This document shows positions 8,450 through 17,007 of a stretch of 26,405 nucleotides of DNA, in pieces. Positions within the stretch are counted from its first letter, which is position 1. Every line of letters begins with the position of its first letter. Under the pieces are notes generated by a model. That model saw nothing but the letters and a program-made list of their open reading frames with translations. It was not told the DNA's origin and ran no database searches. Source of the DNA: a virus; the IMG/VR virus record IMGVR_UViG_3300042543_000324, positions 1 through 26,405 of that record. One strand, 5' to 3'. A program made the position numbers and the translations under genes.

Positions 8450-8785
8450 TCAAGAAACGTGGCTACCCTCGCGTGGCTGGCAAACGCCTTGCCGCCATTT
8501 GCTGACCTTGCTTTGCGTACTCGCGACGGGCTCGGACATCCGCTGCCGAATGTGAGCCTCACGGCATTCGGCCATCCGAACCGCCTGGGCGGCCTTTTCT
8601 GCCGCGTCTGGCTCATCGTTGGCCGCTTGGTTGCGTTGCACGAAATGGCGCTTTGGGAGCCTGTGCAACGCCGCCAGTTGCCGTAGCTGCGTCTCGCTGA
8701 TCAGCAAAATCGCGGCGACCTCGTCGGTCGTAAACTTGCTGTTGCACCAGACGCGCCGCAGTCTCTCGTAGGGAATGCGTCTCAT
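8450..8785 (-). CDS. HTH DNA-binding protein, possible small terminase or GcrA-like regulator
   Basis: This gene encodes 111 residues starting at ATG 8785, an ATGA overlap with the end of the dnaN gene. Residues 8-45 (RRVWCNSKFTTDEVAAIL, then LISETQLRQLAALHRLPKR) form a helix-turn-helix of the kind found in GcrA-like and terminase-small-subunit-like proteins. The rest is charged and probably helical. Its nearest clear partners are dnaN upstream and, further downstream, terminase. A DNA-recognition subunit of the packaging motor or a transcription regulator (for instance of the late promoter) are both possible, and the sequence does not decide between them. Confidence 0.6.
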   Translation of the reverse strand: MRRIPYERLRRVWCNSKFTTDEVAAILLISETQLRQLAALHRLPKRHFVQRNQAANDEPDAAEKAAQAVRMAECREAHIRQRMSEPVASTQSKVSKWRQGVCQPREGSHVS

Positions 8786-9900
8786 GCGTCCTCCATCGGC
8801 ATGATGACCGTGCGGGTGTTTTCGCCAATAGATAGCACCACAGCCGACGACTTGTCGGCGATCGTCAGCGTCACCGCTTCGGCCGGGTCGATCGAGCCGC
8901 ACGACAGCCACTCGCGAACGAATCGCGGATTAAGACGCGTCGATACCTTGTGGCCGACCTCGACGAGATCGCACGTCGTTGCCGCCTCGCCGTAGGCGCT
9001 CGACTTGCCATGCACATGGAGACCGTCGTCCGAGACCGTGAGCGTCACCGCTTGGCTCTGCTCATCTGTGCAAATCGCCGCTTGTTCAACGGCCGCGAGC
9101 AATGCCTCGGCCTGCACCATCGAGGGCGTCGCGTCGTGGGCCTTGTCGGCGTCACGCCAACGAGGAAACCGCCCTTCGACCATGCGGGCTTGGACGATCA
9201 CGCCGTCCACGTCCGCCACGAGCTCGCTGGCGTTGGCTGACAGTTGCACGGCGTCCGCAGACCGAGCGAGCTTTACGAGCACGTCGATTGCCCGCCTAGG
9301 TGCCAAAACGTCGCGGTCGTCTGTCGCCTGGTCGATGTCGCACGACGCGATACACAACCGGCGGCCGTCAGTGCCGACAAAGGTCAGCGTCCCGTCCTTG
9401 AACTCGATCAGCACGGCCCCGAGGGCAAACCGGCTGGAGTCGGTATCAGTGGCAAACCGCACGGCCTGCACCAAAGACGCAAGCTGATCTCCAGGCAGGC
9501 GAGCGATTGCGTCCGAAACGCCGCACGCCGGAAAAGGATACTCGGCCACGTCTTCGACCGGTATTTTCCATTCGCCGTTGCCGCCGCGCACCGTGGCGAG
9601 CCCGCCGTCGGCGGCGATCGTCACCTCGTCGTCGGCGTGTAGCAGGCCGACAATCGTCAAGAGCCTTGCGTGGGGGAGCAAAAAGTTATGGCCGCTCGAC
9701 TCGGGGAGCGGGGCGGTAATTTTTAACTCCAGGTCCGTTGCCGAGACGACGCCGTCCGAGATGAGCACGTTTTGCAAGATTGGTTTCGGGCTCCTCGTCG
9801 GCACCGCCGCCGATACCGTTCGCAGTGCTGCCGCTAACGCTCGCGCTTCGCACGTCATGCCACCAACGCGGGTCTTTCGTTTCGTCGCTGTCGCTGTCAT
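8782..9900 (-). CDS. dnaN: DNA polymerase III beta subunit (sliding clamp)
   Basis: This gene encodes 372 residues, the normal length for beta clamps. ATG 9900 is chosen because AAGGAT lies upstream; an earlier in-frame start would add residues with no clamp similarity. Clamp landmarks include CEARALAAALRTVSAAVPTR at the N-terminus, VISATDLEL-type and VEGRFPRW segments (the latter as MVEGRFPRWRD), SRFALGAVLIEF, and FVGTDGRRL. The C-terminus, TVIMPMEDA, keeps the hydrophobic MPM that forms the partner-binding pocket in bacterial clamps. It would encircle DNA and tether polymerase and other clamp-binding proteins. No phage polymerase is encoded in the window, so it presumably works with the host replisome or a replicase elsewhere. 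Confidence 0.93.
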   Translation of the reverse strand: MTATATKRKTRVGGMTCEARALAAALRTVSAAVPTRSPKPILQNVLISDGVVSATDLELKITAPLPESSGHNFLLPHARLLTIVGLLHADDEVTIAADGGLATVRGGNGEWKIPVEDVAEYPFPACGVSDAIARLPGDQLASLVQAVRFATDTDSSRFALGAVLIEFKDGTLTFVGTDGRRLCIASCDIDQATDDRDVLAPRRAIDVLVKLARSADAVQLSANASELVADVDGVIVQARMVEGRFPRWRDADKAHDATPSMVQAEALLAAVEQAAICTDEQSQAVTLTVSDDGLHVHGKSSAYGEAATTCDLVEVGHKVSTRLNPRFVREWLSCGSIDPAEAVTLTIADKSSAVVLSIGENTRTVIMPMEDA

Positions 9901-10009
9901 TTGGAGAATCCTTTCTCGTGAGTGAAATTCCAACACAAATGCCAAGACCGAAGGTCAAGGCGTTGACGATGAAGCCGAACGTCACGAGTGCCAGTTGGGA
10001 GGCTGTCAT
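9686..10009 (-). CDS. Membrane protein gene overlapping dnaN out of frame
   Basis: The 107-residue frame starts at ATG 10009 in an ATGA overlap with the upstream gene, which is the normal linkage in this operon. Residues 1-31 (MTASQLALVTFGFIVNALTF, then GLGICVGISLTRK) form a convincing transmembrane segment with a basic cytoplasmic end. From residue 37 on the frame lies inside dnaN for 215 bp. The tail is polar (DSPNDSDSDETKDPRWW) and then arginine-rich, as expected of an overprinted sequence. The membrane part alone covers the space before dnaN. The gene is probable, but whether the whole overlapping tail is functional is unknown. No family is recognised. Confidence 0.5.
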   Translation of the reverse strand: MTASQLALVTFGFIVNALTFGLGICVGISLTRKDSPNDSDSDETKDPRWWHDVRSASVSGSTANGIGGGADEEPETNLAKRAHLGRRRLGNGPGVKNYRPAPRVERP

Positions 10010-10209
10010 TTGCGAGCCTCCAACATGGCCTCGTAGAGCTCGATACGCTTGGCCTGGCGGACGGTGTGAGCCGTAAGCCGCCTGATGGTGCGATAGGCCC
10101 ACTCCAGAGCGAGCCGCGGCTTGTCGGGAGTTGTTTCCTCCCAAGCCTCGTGTAAGCAAATAGCCGCGACGCGATCGGGCCCGGGCGGGTTTTGTCCGTC
10201 GTGCGTCAC
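10006..10209 (-). CDS. Small helical protein, unknown
   Basis: This gene encodes 67 residues starting at GTG 10209, a GTGA overlap with the LexA-like gene. A longer in-frame reading would run into that gene and is rejected. The sequence (MTHDGQNPPGPDRVAAICLH, then WAYRTIRRLTAHTVRQAKRI) is predicted mostly helical and rich in Arg and Ala at its C-terminus, ending ELYEAMLEARK. No motif is recognised. It sits between a LexA-like DNA-binding protein and a membrane-protein gene with stop/start overlaps on both sides, so it is almost certainly translated. Confidence 0.65.
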   Translation of the reverse strand: MTHDGQNPPGPDRVAAICLHEAWEETTPDKPRLALEWAYRTIRRLTAHTVRQAKRIELYEAMLEARK

Positions 10210-10442
10210 GGCCGCACCTCCGTCGGTCGCAGCGTGCGGGCCTTGCCGTCGATCCAGTCGACCATGCCGCGCAGCCGCAATGGGCGCAGGTGACATATCG
10301 CGCCGTTCTTGCTGCGAAACTTGAACGCCGCGCAGAGCTCGCCAACTGTCGGGCTAAATCCGTTGGCGGCGACGTAATCGCAAATCCAACGGTAGACCTC
10401 CATCTGGCGGTTGGTAACAGGCAACTCCGAAAGCGTTCTCAT
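10206..10442 (-). CDS. LexA-type winged-helix DNA-binding domain protein
   Basis: This gene encodes 78 residues starting at ATG 10442 (ATGA overlap upstream). The sequence aligns with the LexA N-terminal domain: TNRQMEVYRWICDYVAANGF, then SPTVGELCAAFKFRS, NGAICHLRPL and GMVDWIDGKARTLRPT. These correspond to the recognition HTH and the beta-wing. The C-terminal latent peptidase domain is absent, so RecA-triggered self-cleavage cannot occur. Stand-alone LexA winged-helix proteins are common in phages as regulators. It may bind host or phage operators, possibly the inverted repeats near 14.3-15.3 kb, although its location inside the early operon and the lack of any matched site leave that open. 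Confidence 0.8.
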   Translation of the reverse strand: MRTLSELPVTNRQMEVYRWICDYVAANGFSPTVGELCAAFKFRSKNGAICHLRPLRLRGMVDWIDGKARTLRPTEVRP

Positions 10443-11791: not shown

Positions 11792-12619
11792 TCAGACAAT
11801 CGCGGGCGTCCTAGGCGTCTTCGTCCTCAACTGGGCCCAATCGCAATATGCGGCCTCGAACAACGCGGGCGACCTGTGCCCTAGGTGAAGCCGCCCGGCA
11901 CCGGCCTGGGCCATCTCGCAGTGAGTCGCCCCCGAGCGCCTCAACCACTTTGACGAGCCGCCGAGGCCCTGCGAGTCGAGCAGCGTCCGCATGTGCCGCA
12001 TTGCCATACGCTTGCCGCACGCCCAGCCGAGAATCCGTCCGTCGGGCGACGCGGCAAGCATCGCGTCGATCGCCGTGAGACAGGCTGGCGTGAGCGGCCT
12101 CGACAGCGGATCGCCGGTCTTCGACTGCGTCCACGCGAGCGTATCGCCGTCCAGGTTGTCGGCGGTGAACGACATCACGTCGCCAAACCGTGCCCCGCAT
12201 TCGTAGGCCACGAGCACCCAGCAACGGAGGAAAGCCCCGAGGTCTGCGCCAGATCGCAGACGCTTTCCGTCGTGAACCTTCGTTGCGTCAATCAAGGCTC
12301 GCAATTGGTCGAGCGTCCATGCCTTAGTCGGTTTCTTGCGAGACTTGACGCGCATCACGCCGCGAGGGGCTTGGTCGATCATCCCGGTCTGGTAGGCCCA
12401 GCAATACAGCGTCAGAAGAATCGTCCGCTCGCTGCGTACGGTGGTCGACTGCTTTGTTTCCGAAATCGACCGGAGGTAGGCGTTCACGCGGTCGACCGTG
12501 ACCTCGCCGCACCGGGCAGCGATGCGCGTCACGTTGTCGGCGTAGACCTTTGAGACGATCCGCTCGCCAAGGTATGCCTTGGCGATGCGGCTAAACGTCA
12601 TGATCGTGGGCTTTTTCAT
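11792..12619 (-). CDS. Tyrosine recombinase (second, in early operon)
   Basis: This gene encodes 275 residues starting at ATG 12619 with AAGGAC upstream. The N-terminal SAM-like DNA-binding part (residues about 10-90) is followed by a catalytic domain: Arg144 (YECGARFGDVMSF), Lys167 (TQSKTG), KWLR (224-227, Arg227), LGH (His248) and Tyr258 (FEAAYCDW). The usual His of the HxxR box is Lys here, a substitution seen in some family members. It is read in the same direction as recT and the replication genes, so it is an early rather than lysogenic gene. It may be a resolvase or an alternative integrase. A second complete recombinase lies at 15434-16351. Confidence 0.88.
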   Translation of the reverse strand: MKKPTIMTFSRIAKAYLGERIVSKVYADNVTRIAARCGEVTVDRVNAYLRSISETKQSTTVRSERTILLTLYCWAYQTGMIDQAPRGVMRVKSRKKPTKAWTLDQLRALIDATKVHDGKRLRSGADLGAFLRCWVLVAYECGARFGDVMSFTADNLDGDTLAWTQSKTGDPLSRPLTPACLTAIDAMLAASPDGRILGWACGKRMAMRHMRTLLDSQGLGGSSKWLRRSGATHCEMAQAGAGRLHLGHRSPALFEAAYCDWAQLRTKTPRTPAIV

Positions 12620-12782
12620 CTGTCCGTCCTTGTGTATTGGCCCCGTGACGTGGGGCGTCCGGTTGCGCCTTAGCGGGGGAGAGCCGCCTATAGCAACGAC
12701 TCGTTACAACGCCACGCGGCCTGGGCGGCGGATGCGGCCGTGAATCGGCAGCCGCTGCGGCAACCGCGTGCCGGTGGTGTAT
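12620..12782. other. Intergenic region between the recombinase and the gene at 12783
   Basis: This 163-bp stretch has no gene I can support. A short frame without a good start continues from the upstream gene and ends at about 12703. The only features are the AAGGAC ribosome site of the recombinase just before 12619 and a run of GC-rich sequence. It may simply be the remnant of a deleted or decayed small gene. Confidence 0.5.
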
Positions 12783-13022
12783 CTACCTCCCCATCCGTTC
12801 AAGTCGCGTCCAACGATCCTGCTCGCGCTGGATCGCCTCGCGATCGCGGCGCGTAGTGTTGGCCCCGCAGTCCACGACGAACGGGAGCGGCTGCTCCTCA
12901 ATCGCCTTGGCAATGTCGGTCGTGAAGGTCGCCCGCTCGGCGGCCTCCTCGGCAAGTTCGCGGGCCACGTCGTTAATCCGCCGGTTGTGTTCGCGCCGGT
13001 CGCGCATCGGGTCGTTGGTCAT
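12783..13022 (-). CDS. Charged helical protein, unknown
   Basis: This gene encodes 79 residues starting at ATG 13022 in an ATGA overlap with the recT-like stop. The sequence is highly charged (MTNDPMRDRREHNRRINDVA, then RELAEEAAERATFTTD) with a heptad-like central helix and a short FVVDCGANTTRRDREA segment. It ends QDRWTRLERMGR. It is likely a helical accessory of the recombination module. I recognise no family. Position immediately after a RecT-like annealase is where phages often encode a partner nuclease or inhibitor, but nothing here looks catalytic. Confidence 0.65.
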   Translation of the reverse strand: MTNDPMRDRREHNRRINDVARELAEEAAERATFTTDIAKAIEEQPLPFVVDCGANTTRRDREAIQREQDRWTRLERMGR

Positions 13023-13861
13023 GCCGTCTCCTTTGCAAGCAGGGTGTCGAGCTTCGCGTGAATCGCCTTGCAGATTTCGGCGTGGTCATCCTCGGTAAAC
13101 GTGCCGTCGCCGAGGCGTTCGTCCGCCGTGGTCCGCAGCGCCTCCAGCCGGTCGACCGTGGTCGCACGGGCGACGGCGGCGCGGGCCTTCTGGATCGCAG
13201 TGGGCTCCAGCGCCACTTGGACGGCCGCGGGTGTCGGCGGCTCGAACGTGGCGACGTGGTGGACTTCGATCCCGTTGCCCGCGAGCGTCGCCTTGGGGCG
13301 GGCCGTGGCGGGCTCTGCCGTCGGGTAGTCCTGCGCCTCCTCGGCCGTGATCAACCCACGCAAGGCGTCGGCAAAGGCGTTGCGAAGAGCAAAGCCACGA
13401 GCCCGCAGGGCAAGCATTCTGGCTGGGTAGGCACTCCACGGGCCGCTCTTGCCAGCCAGCCCGGCACGCTTGGCGTCGGCCATGCTGAACCGGCTAACGG
13501 TCGGGGCCGGGTAGCCTCGACGCTTCGCCTCGCAAACCGCCGTCAGGTTGTCGCCGTCGCCCTCGGTGTATTCGCGGACGTACTCGCAAACGGGCGAGGC
13601 TTGCACTAGGGCGAGCGCGGCGTCGCCCCAAATCGTCGGCCTGCCGTTGATGACGGCGATCGACTGGAGCGATTGCATCGGGGAAAGGCCGACCTCGCTG
13701 CCATGCTGGATCGCGAGCAAGCAGGATTCCGGCTTGCCCTTGAAGTCCTTTGGGGCAAAGTCGCTCGCTGCGACCATCTTGGAAAACCGGAAAGCATCGT
13801 CAAACGAGGCGAGAGCCAACCCTCTCGCGGGTGCCGTGTTAGTGGAAATCTCCGTCGTCAT
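13019..13861 (-). CDS. RecT-like single-strand annealing recombinase
   Basis: This gene encodes 280 residues. ATG 13861 is chosen for its AAGGACG-type ribosome site; the open frame extends upstream without family similarity. Features of the RecT superfamily are visible: a SFDDAFRFSKMVAASDFAPK start, the CLLAIQHGSEVGLSPMQSLQ motif, SIAVINGRPTIWGDAALALV, and WSAYPARMLALRARGFALRN with DALRGLITAEEAQD. Such proteins coat single-stranded DNA and anneal complementary strands during phage recombination. The C-terminal 100 residues are low-similarity and Ala-rich. A partner exonuclease of the RecE/lambda Exo type is not seen in the window. RusA downstream would resolve its products. Confidence 0.88.
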   Translation of the reverse strand: MTTEISTNTAPARGLALASFDDAFRFSKMVAASDFAPKDFKGKPESCLLAIQHGSEVGLSPMQSLQSIAVINGRPTIWGDAALALVQASPVCEYVREYTEGDGDNLTAVCEAKRRGYPAPTVSRFSMADAKRAGLAGKSGPWSAYPARMLALRARGFALRNAFADALRGLITAEEAQDYPTAEPATARPKATLAGNGIEVHHVATFEPPTPAAVQVALEPTAIQKARAAVARATTVDRLEALRTTADERLGDGTFTEDDHAEICKAIHAKLDTLLAKETA

Positions 13862-13938
13862 CGTCGCGTCCTTTCGTCCTTGTGAAATGCCCGCCTTGGC
13901 GTCATGCGTCAGCGGGTGAACCATCCCTCCCTGGTCTC

Positions 13939-13953
13939 GGCGTCTCCGACGCC
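13939..13953 (-). repeat. Short intercistronic hairpin
   Basis: A perfect inverted repeat GGCGTC-TCC-GACGCC forms a 6-bp stem just after the stop of the gene at 13958-14182. There is no U-run after it, so it probably affects mRNA stability rather than ending transcription. The remaining 80 bases before the recT-like start hold only that gene's ribosome site. Confidence 0.45.
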
Positions 13954-13957
13954 TCTC

Positions 13958-14182
13958 CTAGTGCGTGATGTCGGCCGTGCTGACGTAGACCCAGCCGCCG
14001 TCGAGCTTGATGCAGACGCGGCCGTCGTCGGCGATCCATTCGACGTTGCCGCTCCAGCGCTTGCCGCCGCTGACGCCAGAGATGAAATCGCCAACCGCGA
14101 GGTCGTGCGTCTGCCTCGGTGCGGGCGTCTGCTCCGCGATCCCGGTGGCGGCGGCGAGGTATTCGTTGTGATGCGCGTCCAT
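13958..14182 (-). CDS. Small protein, first gene of the early operon
   Basis: This gene encodes 74 residues starting at ATG 14182, with AAAGGAA upstream. The strong promoter at 14210-14237 lies just before it, which makes this the first gene of the early transcript and excludes the longer in-frame start that would begin upstream of the predicted transcript. The C-terminal half (HDLAVGDFISGVSGGKRWSG, then VEWIADDGRVCIKLDGG, WVYVSTADITH) is a likely small beta-barrel of SH3-like shape. No family name is recalled. Being first after a promoter, it may be an anti-host or regulatory protein. Confidence 0.65.
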   Translation of the reverse strand: MDAHHNEYLAAATGIAEQTPAPRQTHDLAVGDFISGVSGGKRWSGNVEWIADDGRVCIKLDGGWVYVSTADITH

Positions 14183-14209
14183 GTGATTCCTTTCGTGATG
14201 GAGTGGCGA

Positions 14210-14237
14210 ACTATACAACCGATCAGTTAGTGGTCAA
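14210..14237 (-). promoter_or_regulatory. Sigma70-like early promoter, GATC palindrome in spacer
   Basis: On the minus strand TTGACC (14237-14232) and TATAGT (14215-14210) are separated by 16 bp. The predicted start, about 14203, is 20 bases before the gene at 14182. The spacer holds AACTGATCGGTT, an almost perfect inverted repeat centred on GATC, which differs from the ACCG-type operators nearby. This is the most promoter-like sequence in the window and should drive the early operon. Confidence 0.75.
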
Positions 14238-14292
14238 GGGATCAGACCGACAAAATGGGGGGACTTGAAACCGCGTACAGTGGCCGGGCGTC

Positions 14293-14310
14293 TGTGCCGG
14301 TATCGGTAAA
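14293..14310. promoter_or_regulatory. Operator copy O1 (CGGTAAA-type inverted repeat)
   Basis: The sequence ends CCGGTATCGGTAAA and matches the right half and core of the consensus TTTACCG-N4-CGGTAAA. The left half is weaker (TGTGCCG). It lies 30 bp, near three helical turns, from the next copy at 14323-14340. It would occupy about +5 to +22 of the promoter at 14321-14348. Confidence 0.65.
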
Positions 14311-14320
14311 TGCGGCCAGC

Positions 14321-14348
14321 AACATACCGATAGCGGTAAAGAAGTCAA
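14321..14348 (-). promoter_or_regulatory. Promoter with operator copy O2 in its spacer
   Basis: On the minus strand TTGACT (14348-14343) and TATGTT (14326-14321) are spaced by 16 bp. The spacer is filled by the inverted repeat at 14323-14340 (ATACCG-ATAG-CGGTAA on plus). Predicted start is about 14314, reading towards the early operon. The -35 overlaps the stop codon of the small gene at 14345-14488. Binding of a repressor at O2 would exclude RNA polymerase. Confidence 0.7.
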
Positions 14349-14488
14349 CCAAAAAGATTGGAGGCCAGCCGAATCGCGGTGTCGATGCCGCAGGCGACAG
14401 CCTGAGCAAGGTCCGAGTCGGTGCCGAGCTCCTGGCCGAGTCGGACCATGAGCAGTTGTTCGAGGAGCCGGTTCCAGATTCGCCGCAT
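14345..14488 (-). CDS. Small helical protein, 47 residues
   Basis: The gene starts at ATG 14488, with GGAG eight bases upstream, and ends in a TGA that forms part of the -35 of the promoter at 14321-14348. The sequence MRRIWNRLLEQLLMVRLGQE, then LGTDSDLAQAVACGIDTAIR and LASNLFG, suggests two amphipathic helices. No family is recognised. It follows directly after a terminator hairpin (14511-14559), so its expression may depend on read-through or antitermination from the gene upstream. Confidence 0.55.
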   Translation of the reverse strand: MRRIWNRLLEQLLMVRLGQELGTDSDLAQAVACGIDTAIRLASNLFG

Positions 14489-14510
14489 GGCTTGCACTCC
14501 GTTGCGTCTA

Positions 14511-14559
14511 AGGAAAAAAAGTTGCCACCCGTTTCGCGGCTTGCGGCTGGCCGGGTGGC
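14511..14559 (-). terminator. Rho-independent terminator
   Basis: On the minus strand GCCACCCG (14559-14552) pairs with CGGGTGGC (14531-14524) across a 20-base loop, followed by AACTTTTTTT down to 14514. This 8-bp GC stem with a U-tract is a good intrinsic terminator for the gene at 14576-14839. Confidence 0.8.
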
Positions 14560-14575
14560 CCCACCTTGTGGTCGG

Positions 14576-14839
14576 TTAGGCGATCCCGCAGGCCGTCTCG
14601 ATCATGCAGCGGATGGCGTCGGTCTTGTACGCGGCAACAGCCGCCTCGGCCGTGGCGAACCGCTTGCCCATTCCGCGCCAGGCGCGGTTCATGGCGTTCT
14701 GGACGACAACCTGAACGTAGCTCGTCGCACCACGGCAGACGACAACCAACGCCGAATGCTTGCCGCACTGCAACTCGACGTAGAGGTATTCGTTGCCGAG
14801 GGCAGTCTGGCGGCTGGTGTCGGTGATCATGGCGTTCAT
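14576..14839 (-). CDS. Unknown protein under operator-controlled promoter
   Basis: This gene encodes 87 residues. ATG 14839 is preferred, with GGGAG eight bases upstream; an earlier in-frame ATG at 14875 lacks a ribosome site but lies within the predicted transcript. The sequence contains a beta-rich centre (NEYLYVELQCGKHSALVVVC, then GATSYVQVVVQNAMNRAWR) and a helical C-terminus (RFATAEAAVAAYKTDAIRCM). No family is recognised. The gene has its own promoter with operator copy O3 and its own terminator, so it is a single-gene unit controlled by the same regulator as its neighbours. Confidence 0.7.
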   Translation of the reverse strand: MNAMITDTSRQTALGNEYLYVELQCGKHSALVVVCRGATSYVQVVVQNAMNRAWRGMGKRFATAEAAVAAYKTDAIRCMIETACGIA

Positions 14840-14892
14840 CGTTTCGTCTCCCGTTTGCGTGCTGGCGAGTCTCATTCGCTCGCCATGCCCCT

Positions 14893-14920
14893 AGTTTACC
14901 GGTATCGGTAAAGATGTCAA
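14893..14920 (-). promoter_or_regulatory. Promoter with perfect operator copy O3 in its spacer
   Basis: On the minus strand TTGACA (14920-14915), the perfect consensus -35, and TAAACT (14898-14893) are 16 bp apart. The operator at 14895-14912, TTTACCGGTATCGGTAAA on plus, is a perfect 7-4-7 inverted repeat. The predicted start is about 14886, giving a 47-base leader to the gene at 14839. Confidence 0.8.
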
Positions 14921-14965
14921 CAGGGCTTTACGGATTTTTTTGGGAAGGGAAGGAACTGCCGGAAA

Positions 14966-15229
14966 TCAGCGGCTTTTCCGCCGCTTGTGCTTGGGCTTTG
15001 GCGTGGACGCCTTGGCGGCCTCGGCCTTCCTGACGTTGGAATGGGGGGCAAGCTCTGCCCGCATGGCCCGGCAGCCCTCAACGCTGACCATCCAGGCCCG
15101 TTCGTTGGCCTTGAAGCCTTGCAGGCGGCCCTCACGCAGCCGCAGGCGAATAAGCCCATCAGTGCAGCCCGCAATCTCAACGGCTTCCTCGACCGAGCAC
15201 CACTTCCCGTCTGGGGTCATCGTTACCAT
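14966..15229 (-). CDS. HTH DNA-binding protein (excisionase/MerR-like), probably leaderless
   Basis: This gene encodes 87 residues from ATG 15229, with a second ATG three codons later. Residues 10-55 (WCSVEEAVEIAGCTDGLIRL, then RLREGRLQGFKANERAWMVS) resemble the HTH of excisionase or MerR-type winged-helix proteins, including the closing strand WMVSVEGCRAM. The C-terminal 25 residues are Lys/Arg-rich (PKPKHKRRKSR), suggesting nonspecific DNA contact. The promoter at 15236-15263 predicts transcription start at the A of the first ATG, as for a leaderless mRNA like that of lambda cI from PRM. Next to the integrase, an excisionase or autoregulator role is likely. It is a candidate to bind the four operators. 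Confidence 0.75.
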   Translation of the reverse strand: MVTMTPDGKWCSVEEAVEIAGCTDGLIRLRLREGRLQGFKANERAWMVSVEGCRAMRAELAPHSNVRKAEAAKASTPKPKHKRRKSR

Positions 15230-15235
15230 GCTCCA

Positions 15236-15263
15236 ACTTTACCGGCAGCGGTAGGCAAGTCAA
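15236..15263 (-). promoter_or_regulatory. Promoter with operator copy O4 in its spacer
   Basis: On the minus strand TTGACT (15263-15258) and TAAAGT (15241-15236) are spaced by 16 bp. The spacer is occupied by TTTACCG-GCAG-CGGTAGG (15238-15255 on plus), degenerate in the right arm. Predicted start is 15229, the first base of the HTH gene, so that gene would be autoregulated if it encodes the binder. Confidence 0.75.
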
Positions 15264-15310
15264 ACGACGGCGGACTGGAGATTTCCAATCCTCCACCGTT
15301 TCTTGCCTCG

Positions 15311-15348
15311 CTCTGCCCGGCGGCCATACCATCGACTGCCGGGCAGAG
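15311..15348. repeat. 11-bp inverted repeat upstream of the integrase
   Basis: The arms CTCTGCCCGGC (15311-15321) and GCCGGGCAGAG (15338-15348) form a perfect stem with a 16-base loop and no T-run. It lies in the 204-bp gap between the divergent HTH and integrase genes. It may be a terminator insulating the two units or part of an attachment region. Confidence 0.6.
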
Positions 15349-15351
15349 TGT

Positions 15352-15379
15352 TAGCGGAGAGGGCGGGGCTTGAAGCCGC
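15352..15379 (-). other. tRNA-Ser 3'-end-like sequence, candidate attP core
   Basis: On the minus strand GCGGCTTCAAGCCCCGC (15379-15363) reads like a T-arm and is followed by CCTCTCC, then G, then CTA. This equals the 3' half of a tRNA-Ser acceptor stem plus discriminator. One T-stem pair (53-61) is C-C instead of G-C, and the CCA is CTA. Tyrosine integrases often use tRNA 3' ends as attachment sites. The remaining tRNA is absent, so it is not a tRNA gene. Confidence 0.4.
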
Positions 15380-15433
15380 GTATACAGGTGAACAGTATGG
15401 TATGCTGCTCGGCACAACCAGGAGGCAGACGCC

Positions 15434-16351
15434 ATGATAATGCGAGAGATTTTGGGTCGGTATGCAATCCTCCAAAACCTGAGCGACCGGACGGTGGAGC
15501 TTTACGGCCACACGCTCGATCGGTTTGCGGAGCACCTGGGGCACGAGCCGACGATCGACGACCTCGACGACCTCGTTGTCGCCGGATTCCTTCGGTGGCG
15601 GGCAGCCACGCCTAGGAAGCGTGGAAAGCCGTCTGCGGCCTCGGTGGCAAAAGACAAGTCGCAGTTGACCGCCCTTGCCAACTGGGCCGCCAAAAAGCGC
15701 CTAGAGCGGTCTGACGGGAAGCCGGTCGAGTTCCTATCGCTGCCGCGGTCGCGAAAGATTCGCCACGCCCCGCAGGCGTATACGGCCGACGAGGTTGCGC
15801 GTCTCATCCGGCTGGCAAAGACCCGCGTCGGGACCATCGACGGCAAGCCCGCCGCTTGGTGGTGGTCGACGTTGATCTACGCGGCGTGGTGTAGCGCGGA
15901 GCGCATAGGTGCCTTGCGCGAGCTACGCTGGAAGGACGTAGACCTCCAGGGCCGTACGCTCTTGTTCAGGGCTGAGACTAGGAAAGGGCGGTCGGCCGAC
16001 ATTCAGCGGGCCATAACGCCAGACCTCGCGGCGTCGCTCGCCCGGTTTGAGGGGCCGCCCGGCGAGCTTGTATGGCGTTGGGATCGCGCACACCATTCGC
16101 TCTGGCCTAGCCTCAAATTGCTCTGCCAACGAGCGGGCGTACGCGGGACAGGGTTCCACCGGCTGCGGAAAGCGTCAGCGTCTTACGTTGCCCTTGGTGG
16201 CGGTGATGCGACCGAGCACCTAGGGCACGCCTCGCCAGAGATGACGAGGGCTCACTACCTTGACCCGAGGATCACGTCGCCAAAAAACGCGCTTGACTAC
16301 CTCCCTCGCCTTGACATAGACGGAAATAGTCAAGGCAGCGGCAGTGCTTGA
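15434..16351 (+). CDS. int: Tyrosine integrase
   Basis: This gene encodes 305 residues starting at ATG 15434, eight bases after AGGAGG; it is the only plus-strand gene I accept. Residues of about 1-95 form the SAM-like core-binding domain (LSDRTVELYGHTLDRFAEHL). The catalytic domain carries Arg157 (CSAERIGALREL), Lys184 (AETRKG), His242 and Arg245 (FHRLRKASAS), His265 (LGHASPEM) and Tyr275 (RAHYLD), all canonical. It would integrate the phage at a host attachment site and, with an excisionase, reverse this. It is divergent from the HTH gene at 14966-15229 and convergent with the late operon. The integrase promoter could not be placed with confidence. Confidence 0.93.
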   Translation: MIMREILGRYAILQNLSDRTVELYGHTLDRFAEHLGHEPTIDDLDDLVVAGFLRWRAATPRKRGKPSAASVAKDKSQLTALANWAAKKRLERSDGKPVEFLSLPRSRKIRHAPQAYTADEVARLIRLAKTRVGTIDGKPAAWWWSTLIYAAWCSAERIGALRELRWKDVDLQGRTLLFRAETRKGRSADIQRAITPDLAASLARFEGPPGELVWRWDRAHHSLWPSLKLLCQRAGVRGTGFHRLRKASASYVALGGGDATEHLGHASPEMTRAHYLDPRITSPKNALDYLPRLDIDGNSQGSGSA

Positions 16352-16361
16352 CGTATGTCAA
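16308..16361. repeat. TTGAC/GTCAA inverted repeats at the integrase 3' end
   Basis: Two inverted repeats lie back to back: GCCTTGAC (16308-16315) with GTCAAGGC (16329-16336), and TTGAC-GTAT-GTCAA (16348-16361) across the stop codon. The shared TTGAC half-sites could be integrase or excisionase binding sites, or form part of the transcription end. Most of this is coding, so chance cannot be excluded. Confidence 0.4.
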
Positions 16362-16369
16362 TCGACGGG

Positions 16370-16407
16370 GGCGCGGCCGAGGGAAAGGACGAAACCCCGG
16401 CCGCGCC
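16370..16407. terminator. Terminator-like hairpin between convergent genes
   Basis: GGCGCGGCCG (16370-16379) and CGGCCGCGCC (16398-16407) form a perfect 10-bp GC stem. It lies between the integrase stop at 16351 and the stop of the small gene at 16421 that ends the opposing operon. There is no T-run on either side, so it may act as a pause or Rho-assisted bidirectional terminator. Confidence 0.6.
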
Positions 16408-16420
16408 ACGCCCGCCGCGA

Positions 16421-16543
16421 TCAGTCGCAGAATAGTTCGTCTGCTTTGTCGCCGATGCTCTCTGCCGCAAACATCAGCGCCTGGGCAACCACGGCAATCG
16501 CCACGGCCACGCCCATCAACGTCCATGCCGCGTAACGCCTCAT
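16421..16543 (-). CDS. Small membrane protein, last gene of the late operon
   Basis: This gene encodes 40 residues starting at ATG 16543 in an ATGA overlap with the upstream gene. MRRYAAWTLMGVAVAIAVVA, then QALMFAAESIGDKADELFCD, is a basic N-terminus, a 20-residue membrane helix and an acidic tail, orienting the N-terminus inward. It is a typical size for a holin-like, pinholin-like or antiholin-like protein. It ends the operon, just before the hairpin at 16370-16407. Function is inference. Confidence 0.65.
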   Translation of the reverse strand: MRRYAAWTLMGVAVAIAVVAQALMFAAESIGDKADELFCD

Positions 16544-17007
16544 AGTGGAATCTTTGCGTCTTTGTCAACGAAGATGCTTTCTCCACGCGCGGCCCTTCGC
16601 TCCATCTCGTCGACCTTGCTTGACGTTCCAGGCAACGACTCCGTTGGCGGCGCGGCATCCATCACGGCCTGAACTTCGGCGACGATGGCGTCGAGCTCGT
16701 CGCGCCCCAGTAGGCAGGCGTCGTGGATCAGCGTGCGATCGCCACGAGCGGCACGAGCCGCGTAGGTTTCACCCTCTAGGCTTTGCCCGCCCGCCGTCTC
16801 TGGACGTGCAAAGAGTCGGACGGTGTAGCACAGGTGCGCGTGGACCCGGCTTATGCGTATCAGCCAGTTGTGAACCGGCTTCGGTAGGCCCGATCTTAGG
16901 CGAGTACGCCGGTTTGGCTCGCTGTTTTTTTTGGCTTTTGCGTGCGATGGCGCAGCCCTCGACGGGGGTGGAGTTGCGTCGGCAAAGAGCGGACGTTGTG
17001 CGTCCAT
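16540..17007 (-). CDS. Unknown protein
   Basis: This gene encodes 155 residues from ATG 17007, with only a weak ribosome site. The first 45 residues are basic and low-complexity (PSRAAPSHAKAKKNSEPNRR). The centre (VHNWLIRISRVHAHLCYTVR, then ARGDRTLIHDACLLGRDELD) is helical, and the end (ERRAARGESIFVDKDAKIPL) polar. I recognise no family. It lies between a helical protein and a small membrane protein in the last part of the late operon, linked by an ATGA overlap downstream and 24 bp upstream. Confidence 0.6.
   Translation of the reverse strand: MDAQRPLFADATPPPSRAAPSHAKAKKNSEPNRRTRLRSGLPKPVHNWLIRISRVHAHLCYTVRLFARPETAGGQSLEGETYAARAARGDRTLIHDACLLGRDELDAIVAEVQAVMDAAPPTESLPGTSSKVDEMERRAARGESIFVDKDAKIPL

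Follow-up and report, generated by a model that had tools for sequence, protein, structure and literature searches.

Which protein acts at a set of four 18-bp inverted repeats among the minus-strand promoters of an uncultured phage, and what would it control from there? The window, by which we mean the complete virus record of 26405 bases, had been predicted from its letters to carry a compact multi-promoter switch, with either a helix-turn-helix (HTH) protein encoded at 14966-15229 or a LexA-like protein encoded at 10206-10442 as its binder. We argue here, with a probability of about 0.78, that the four sites (the O1 class) are operators of the phage's own 87-aa HTH regulator, which would repress three promoters (A, B and C), and that a second regulator shared among these phages acts at another operator class, O2. 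The case is built on the sites themselves and the register in which they lie on the promoters, on how well they are conserved and how they co-vary with the HTH protein, and on how little O2 varies.

Layout of the module

Locus maps of relatives, in which losses and contig ends occur, give a conserved order of integrase, operator A, HTH gene, operator B, variable gene, 50-aa protein, operators C1-C2 and early genes. The slot behind promoter B holds different genes in most relatives. The corresponding features of the window are the following:

15434-16351, plus strand: tyrosine integrase, divergent from the HTH gene (family match; relatives)
15381-15394, plus strand: O2 site of the integrase promoter region, TATACAGGTGAACA, with 2 mismatches (sequence; relatives)
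15236-15263, minus strand: promoter A, with TTGACT (15263-15258), a 16-bp spacer and TAAAGT (15241-15236), expected start on or beside the ATG at 15229 (sequence; relatives)
15238-15255, minus strand: operator A (O1 class), over the -10 of the promoter that serves the HTH gene (O1 pattern match; sequence comparison)
14966-15229, minus strand: predicted winged-helix HTH protein of the MerR/excisionase kind, 87 aa, the proposed autorepressor binding O1 (weak family matches, modest-confidence fold, co-variation with the operators)
14893-14920, minus strand: promoter B, with TTGACA (14920-14915), a 16-bp spacer and TAAACT (14898-14893), expected start ~14886 (sequence)
14895-14912, minus strand: operator B, a perfect match to the O1 pattern (pattern match; relatives)
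14863-14886, minus strand: start of the B transcript, with a 4-codon ORF at +1 (14886-14872) and a short hairpin (14885-14863) (sequence; leaders of relatives)
14576-14842, minus strand: variable-slot ORF behind promoter B, 88 aa, or 99 aa if read from 14875 (ORF list; relatives)
14345-14497, minus strand: g50, the conserved 50-aa protein (ORF list; relatives)
14321-14348, minus strand: promoter C, with TTGACT (14348-14343), a 16-bp spacer and TATGTT (14326-14321), expected start ~14314 (sequence)
14323-14340, minus strand: operator C1 (O1), over the -10 of promoter C (pattern match; relatives)
14293-14310, minus strand: operator C2 (O1), spanning roughly +4 to +21 relative to promoter C and offset by 30 bp from C1 (pattern match; relatives)
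14210-14237, minus strand: promoter D, with TTGACC (14237-14232), a 16-bp spacer and TATAGT (14215-14210), ahead of the early genes (sequence; relatives)
14212-14225, minus strand: O2 site of promoter D, TGATCGGTTGTATA, with 2 mismatches to TGWACRNNYGTWCA (sequence; strict matches in relatives)
13958-14182, minus strand: first gene behind promoters C and D, 74 aa (ORF list; relatives)
13019-13924, minus strand: RecT-like single-strand annealing protein of the early operon (family match)
10206-10442, minus strand: LexA DNA-binding domain without peptidase, an unlikely O1 binder (family match; record survey)

A second tyrosine-recombinase-like gene lies downstream at 11792-12619; it falls below the Pfam cut-off and matches PHROG integrases. 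A sliding clamp (DNA polymerase processivity factor) is encoded at 8782-9945. No tRNA or tmRNA was found in the window or in 31 loci, and no Rfam family in 12 loci or in positions 12600-16600 of the window.

Operators in register on three promoters

All four 18-mers lie where they had been reported, with 2, 2, 0 and 2 mismatches to TTTACCGNNNNCGGTAAA at 14293, 14323, 14895 and 15238, respectively. Sites of the TTTACCG-N4-CGGTAAA type with at most three mismatches number four in the window against 0.46 expected, and none of 100 dinucleotide shuffles contained four or more. A chance origin of the O1 sites is rejected on the basis of these shuffles and of the scans described below, in which every match outside the module lay inside a long frame.

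Three minus-strand promoters with 16-bp spacers do carry operators in the same register. The proposal that these operators sit between the -35 and -10 elements holds in that they overlap the spacer; they are not wholly inside it, however, because each ends with four bases that also begin the -10. The repeat at 14293-14310 does not lie between promoter elements and falls downstream of the expected start of promoter C (~14314). Its 30-bp offset from the site at 14323-14340, which may allow side-by-side or looped binding, is as described, and a second site 29-31 bp after C1 recurs in many relatives and with some other protein types.

Because the -10 elements of promoters A and B end 6 nt ahead of an ATG (15229, that of the HTH gene, and 14886), leaderless transcripts are expected from both, and the starts that had been claimed near 14886 and 15229 would coincide with these ATG codons. 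The leaderless start, the O2 class and promoter D formed no part of the original prediction. The O1 sites differ in form, with A mostly NCTACCG..CGGTAGA, B TTTACCG..CGGTAAA and the C sites distinct again, and these differences suggest that the affinity of the A, B and C sites may be graded.

The stop codon of the 4-codon ORF at +1 of the B transcript overlaps the ATG of the 99-aa frame in the window. A hairpin like that at 14885-14863 is found in 12 of 21 representative B leaders, and its stems change by compensation (GCGAG/CTCGC, GCGGG/CCCGC, CAGG/CCTG and GCGGC/GCCGC), which suggests an RNA role for it.

Conservation of O1 and its restriction to the HTH gene

Conservation of the repeats in relatives, a check named with the original prediction, was found when IMG/VR was searched with the HTH protein. 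This search gave 33 loci, and a profile search returned the same 33 contigs. In all 34 contigs made up of the window and these relatives (22 clusters at 95% identity), operator A lies 26-27 bp before the HTH ATG with 1-3 mismatches, a spacing from which a leaderless mRNA is again predicted. Its ACCG and CGGTA columns are invariant across the 22 clusters (2.0 bits), and the flank upstream of the -35 mostly holds <0.7 bits. Promoter C lies 0.4-1.7 kb from promoter A in relatives. Variants with the FN, LN and VN forms of the window type (L061-L065, L070, L072, L009 and L055) keep operator A and have altered B or C sites. The module of L061-L065 is shortened: no 50-aa gene was detected in it, and B and C lie 63 bp apart, both with operators.

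A scan of IMG/VR with the promoter-operator pattern TTGACNNNTTTACCGNNNNCGGTA alone returned 38 contigs, 26 of which are among the 33 HTH contigs; in the remaining 12 the match lies within a stop-to-stop frame of at least 238 codons. When genomes were scanned with a stricter pattern, all 10 matches fell within stop-to-stop frames of at least 211 codons. Outside long frames, O1 in promoter register was found only together with the HTH gene in the scans made. Within 16 whole records, O1 at two or fewer mismatches is confined to the module, and matches with three mismatches are also scattered elsewhere (a reversed control pattern at three or fewer mismatches gave 0 to 3 per record).

These scans bear on the idea that O1 is the operator of a host regulator, with the phage HTH gene a mere passenger. 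Phages do use host repressors, as GIL01 uses host LexA (PMC6182141). The restriction of in-register O1 to loci with the HTH gene argues against such an arrangement here, as does the finding below that O1 tracks HTH type and O2 hardly does so, and we consider it very improbable.

Co-variation of the operators with HTH type

When IMG/VR was scanned for promoter D together with its palindrome, 32 contigs were obtained, 6 of them with the HTH type of the window. We inspected 21 of the other 26, and 20 of these have, by eye, another excisionase-like HTH gene at that position; the remaining one (L171) is too short to judge. Among the five others, L172 (45% G+C) looks unrelated. Relatives of the 50-aa protein, a family of 47-50 aa with the motif VR[LIF]GQELGTDS, are encoded in 400 IMG/VR stretches, and 80 of these loci were used. 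A profile search of all loci gave 135 matches, 127 of them with a usable start and 86 with the 50-aa gene downstream, yielding 59 distinct modules that fall into 12 HTH types by single linkage at 60% identity.

Other HTH types carry other palindromes at the same place in the same layout. By reading, the operators at promoters A and C have TACCG in the window type, GTAACG or CTAACG in type 0, TGCAA in types 4 and 10, and GGTTCCG at both places in type 9; the A sites of type 1 are poor palindromes. When A operators were matched to C regions without hand-picked sites, the match was 10.5/16 within a type and 9.7/16 between types (62/200000 type permutations). Distances between HTH proteins correlate with those between A operators across the 59 modules (Mantel r 0.605; partial on g50 0.585; partial on the A flank 0.574; 0/5000 each), and with those between C operators in the 52 of 59 modules that have TTGAC or CTGAC near the end of g50 (r 0.671; partial on the C flank 0.671; 0/5000). 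The flanks alone give r 0.23-0.28 against the HTH protein (0/5000), and the permutations do not fully remove relatedness. Mean O1 distance is 0.29 within a type versus 0.52 between types. An exact test at the type level covers only 4 types, for which the floor is 1/24. Under a loose -10 rule, 49/59 modules have a correctly spaced TTG as well as an ATG 5-8 nt beyond the -10; the rule also picked the start codon, so this count is partly circular.

Other genes separate the C operator from the HTH gene, which makes plain linkage a poor account of this co-variation. A half-site seems to be common to types 0 and 3, and the A operator of L174 (type 3) is nearly that of L165 (type 0). Such shared half-sites, together with the exceptions among variants, indicate that there are fewer specificity groups than protein types, so that the correlation is strong and not one-to-one. 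The change of operator with repressor that marks an immunity repressor is thus seen here as co-variation, with exceptions. With both A and C operators changing with the HTH protein across 59 modules, the predicted multi-promoter switch finds support with the product of 14966-15229 as its binder, and we regard it as very likely that this protein binds O1.

The LexA-like protein fares poorly as an alternative binder of the four sites. LexA-type winged helices bind palindromes, and its gene lies downstream in the same direction. It was found in only 12 of the 16 whole records, though all 16, which may be fragments, have module sites at three or fewer mismatches, so it is probably not the O1 binder; its sites, moreover, would not be expected to follow HTH type. 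Two of the four records in which it was not found (G406 and G407) have perfect O2 at both places, with the same proviso that records may be fragments. The LexA-like protein resembles GIL01 gp6, a truncated LexA homologue that instead activates a late promoter and late genes (PMC6182141). That the LexA-like protein occupies O1 is accordingly the least credible of the readings considered here.

A predicted excisionase-like fold

What kind of protein would this regulator be? The window protein itself has no Pfam match. Among 20 of its relatives, HTH_17 is matched by 5 (best E 1.5e-4), any other Pfam matches being weak and unrelated, and the NCBIfam family excise by 2 (best E 0.0016), the window protein again without a match. 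A structure model has a mean pLDDT of 67.9, with 74-81 over residues 11-60, and is thus of modest confidence. Its top Foldseek match is Pukovnik Xis (probability 0.99, E 0.086), and BldC, RdfS and the MerR-family proteins NmlR and CadR are also found, along with further phage HTH and excisionase proteins, none of them at E <0.001. Nothing was found when solved structures were searched with a sequence profile. The fold and family matches, weak as they are, indicate that the product of 14966-15229 is probably a winged helix of the MerR/excisionase type. MerR-family regulators act at a palindrome in an over-long spacer of 19-20 bp, whereas promoters A, B and C each have a 16-bp spacer. Nor does the protein have the make-up of lambda CI, with a peptidase S24 domain and a CI-type HTH: no peptidase domain was recognized in the window protein.

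These matches raise the possibility that the HTH protein works mainly as a recombination directionality factor (excisionase). It would then be made early and, like Cro, Cox or Apl, turn off its own promoter and those nearby, with lysogeny kept by another factor, possibly host LexA acting through O2. The fold would fit such a role, as would the position of the HTH gene, which adjoins and diverges from the integrase gene wherever both were detected, and the presence of O2 at the integrase promoter and at promoter D. The O1 sites found, however, are palindromes over promoters and not the direct repeats, one helical turn apart at an attachment site, that an excisionase would use, and their specificity switches between types in a way that resembles immunity over recombination. 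We therefore view a mainly excisionase role as possible rather than probable, and favor the operator-bound repressor. Against that repressor stands the use of direct repeats instead of palindromes by its excisionase-type structural relatives, as by Apl (PMC7498355).

A second operator shared across HTH types

The second operator, TGWACRNNYGTWCA, is found at the integrase promoter and at the fourth promoter, D. Exact copies of the pattern TGNACRNNYGTNCA number 12 and are spread over 10 of the 16 whole records, each at one of these two places; the reversed control pattern has 0 matches. A strict match is absent from the window, whose D and integrase sites have 2 mismatches and are equalled by a match in the C leader. 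Among the modules, the best O2 has at most one mismatch in 43/55 D regions (12 of the 55 came from loci picked by the O2 pattern itself; 32/43 without them) and in 45/56 integrase sides, against ~0.8 expected each from shuffles. Mean O2 distance is 0.22 within an HTH type versus 0.25 between types, and the correlation with HTH type is weak (r 0.154, 39/5000), the sites having been picked as best consensus matches, which favours constancy. This near-constancy of O2 across HTH types suggests that int and D stay under one common frame of control while phages exchange the HTH-operator pair. We suspect that a second regulator common to these phages acts on O2, and perhaps that it is host LexA.

The 14-bp GWAC-N4-GTWC form of O2 resembles that of some LexA boxes. 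For Bacillus LexA, the dimer occupies 14 bp (PMC4551915). Alternatively, the phage integrase or another conserved phage protein may bind O2, an idea to which we give nearly even odds. One O2 site adjoins the integrase gene, and no O2-like site lies within 130 bp before the LexA-like genes at the 8 of 30 Planctomycetota loci that could be placed. The LexA-box form of the site speaks for host LexA instead, as does the O2 in promoter D, far from the integrase.

The choice of Planctomycetota was a guess prompted by a pattern that matched a Blastopirellula MAG by chance, and the genome draws overlap. The tmRNA-like attachment core was found in 0/294 Planctomycetota, the HTH profile in 0/392 Planctomycetota, the D-promoter pattern in 0/377 genomes of one class and the g50 profile in 0/382 genomes; without a known-positive genome such zeros are uninformative. 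A lead to a Deinococcus host was rejected, as two plasmids match the integrase at only 31-32% over half its length. In an isolate phage collection, the HTH, integrase and 50-aa proteins have no match (the 50-aa family was searched with one member by tblastn), and the terminase and RecT have distant matches only.

The operator segment is flanked by a direct repeat (86%) at 14257-14277 and 15362-15382. The copy on the integrase side, which in some relatives reads like a tmRNA 3' end (TTCGACTCCCCTCGCCTCCACT), is a possible attachment core, and there is a partial copy after C2. A deletion switch operating by recombination of the two repeats was considered and dropped because the copies do not track each other between phages, as judged by eye.

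A proposed switch and its relation to known systems

Read together, the sequence comparisons suggest the following mechanism. The HTH protein, presumably as a dimer, would sit on the O1 palindrome and so cover, at promoters A, B and C, both the spacer and the -10. At operator A it would block RNA polymerase and so repress its own leaderless gene, at operator B it would repress the variable gene behind promoter B, and at C1 it would repress the early operon behind promoter C, with C2 strengthening the block there as a roadblock or by cooperativity. From phage to phage the protein varies along with its operators, as immunity specificities do. The second regulator, through O2, would control the integrase promoter and promoter D, a second door to the same early operon; if O2 answers to LexA, DNA damage would open D and int together. 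The 50-aa protein may act against the HTH block or as a partner in it. A bolder version of this scheme is a two-lock switch, in which excisionase-fold lysogeny repressors serve a large group of uncultured phages, with about a dozen protein types and several palindromes, and host LexA, perhaps aided by g50 as gp7 aids LexA in GIL01, gates the integrase and the second early promoter. Taken as a whole this version is speculative, and we think it on balance unlikely to hold in full.

Several known systems share parts of this arrangement. In lambda, an autoregulated repressor with swappable specificity acts at several graded operators over promoters, and the cI mRNA from PRM is leaderless. The system proposed here is alike in its proposed autorepressor, its several graded operators over promoters, its swappable specificity and its predicted leaderless mRNA; it differs in that no CI-type or peptidase S24 match was found, the operators lie on one strand's promoters, and no separate cro gene was recognized. 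The phiC31 CIRs and L5 stoperators are also sets of conserved sites over early promoters served by one repressor, and in this they resemble the sites of the predicted repressor described here, whereas O1 at two or fewer mismatches is found only in one module in the 16 records. P2 Cox is a small excisionase-type protein that also represses early promoters. The same is described for excisionase-type Apl of phage 186, which acts at direct-repeat sites with low specificity and strong cooperativity (PMC7498355). The HTH protein is like both in being a small excisionase-type protein proposed to repress early promoters, and unlike Apl in that the O1 sites are 16-18-bp palindromes, lying across promoter spacers and varying with the protein. 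Finally, lysogeny of GIL01 is described as resting on host LexA with gp7 and gp6, with LexA boxes at the early promoters (PMC6182141, PMC4551915). The LexA-box-like 14-bp sites at early promoters, the truncated LexA homologue and the small conserved protein are points in common, the pairing of g50 with gp7 being by small size and conservation only; a dedicated phage regulator with operators of its own would be added here, and LexA control is putative.

We found no work recognizable as this combination of an excisionase-type repressor and its operators, as judged from titles and abstract starts. In function, the HTH protein would most resemble an immunity repressor with cognate operators; as a protein, it looks like an excisionase. 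A regulator, its operators and its promoters are thereby proposed for phages that, in their HTH, integrase and 50-aa proteins, are without a match in the isolate collection searched. The shared O2 makes a link to the SOS response directly testable once the host is known. Furthermore, 12 protein types with operators at fixed positions constitute an unusual natural data set on DNA choice by excisionase-type winged helices. If the HTH protein is indeed the lysogeny repressor, these phages would owe their immunity to a fold that is otherwise familiar chiefly from excisionases and MerR activators.
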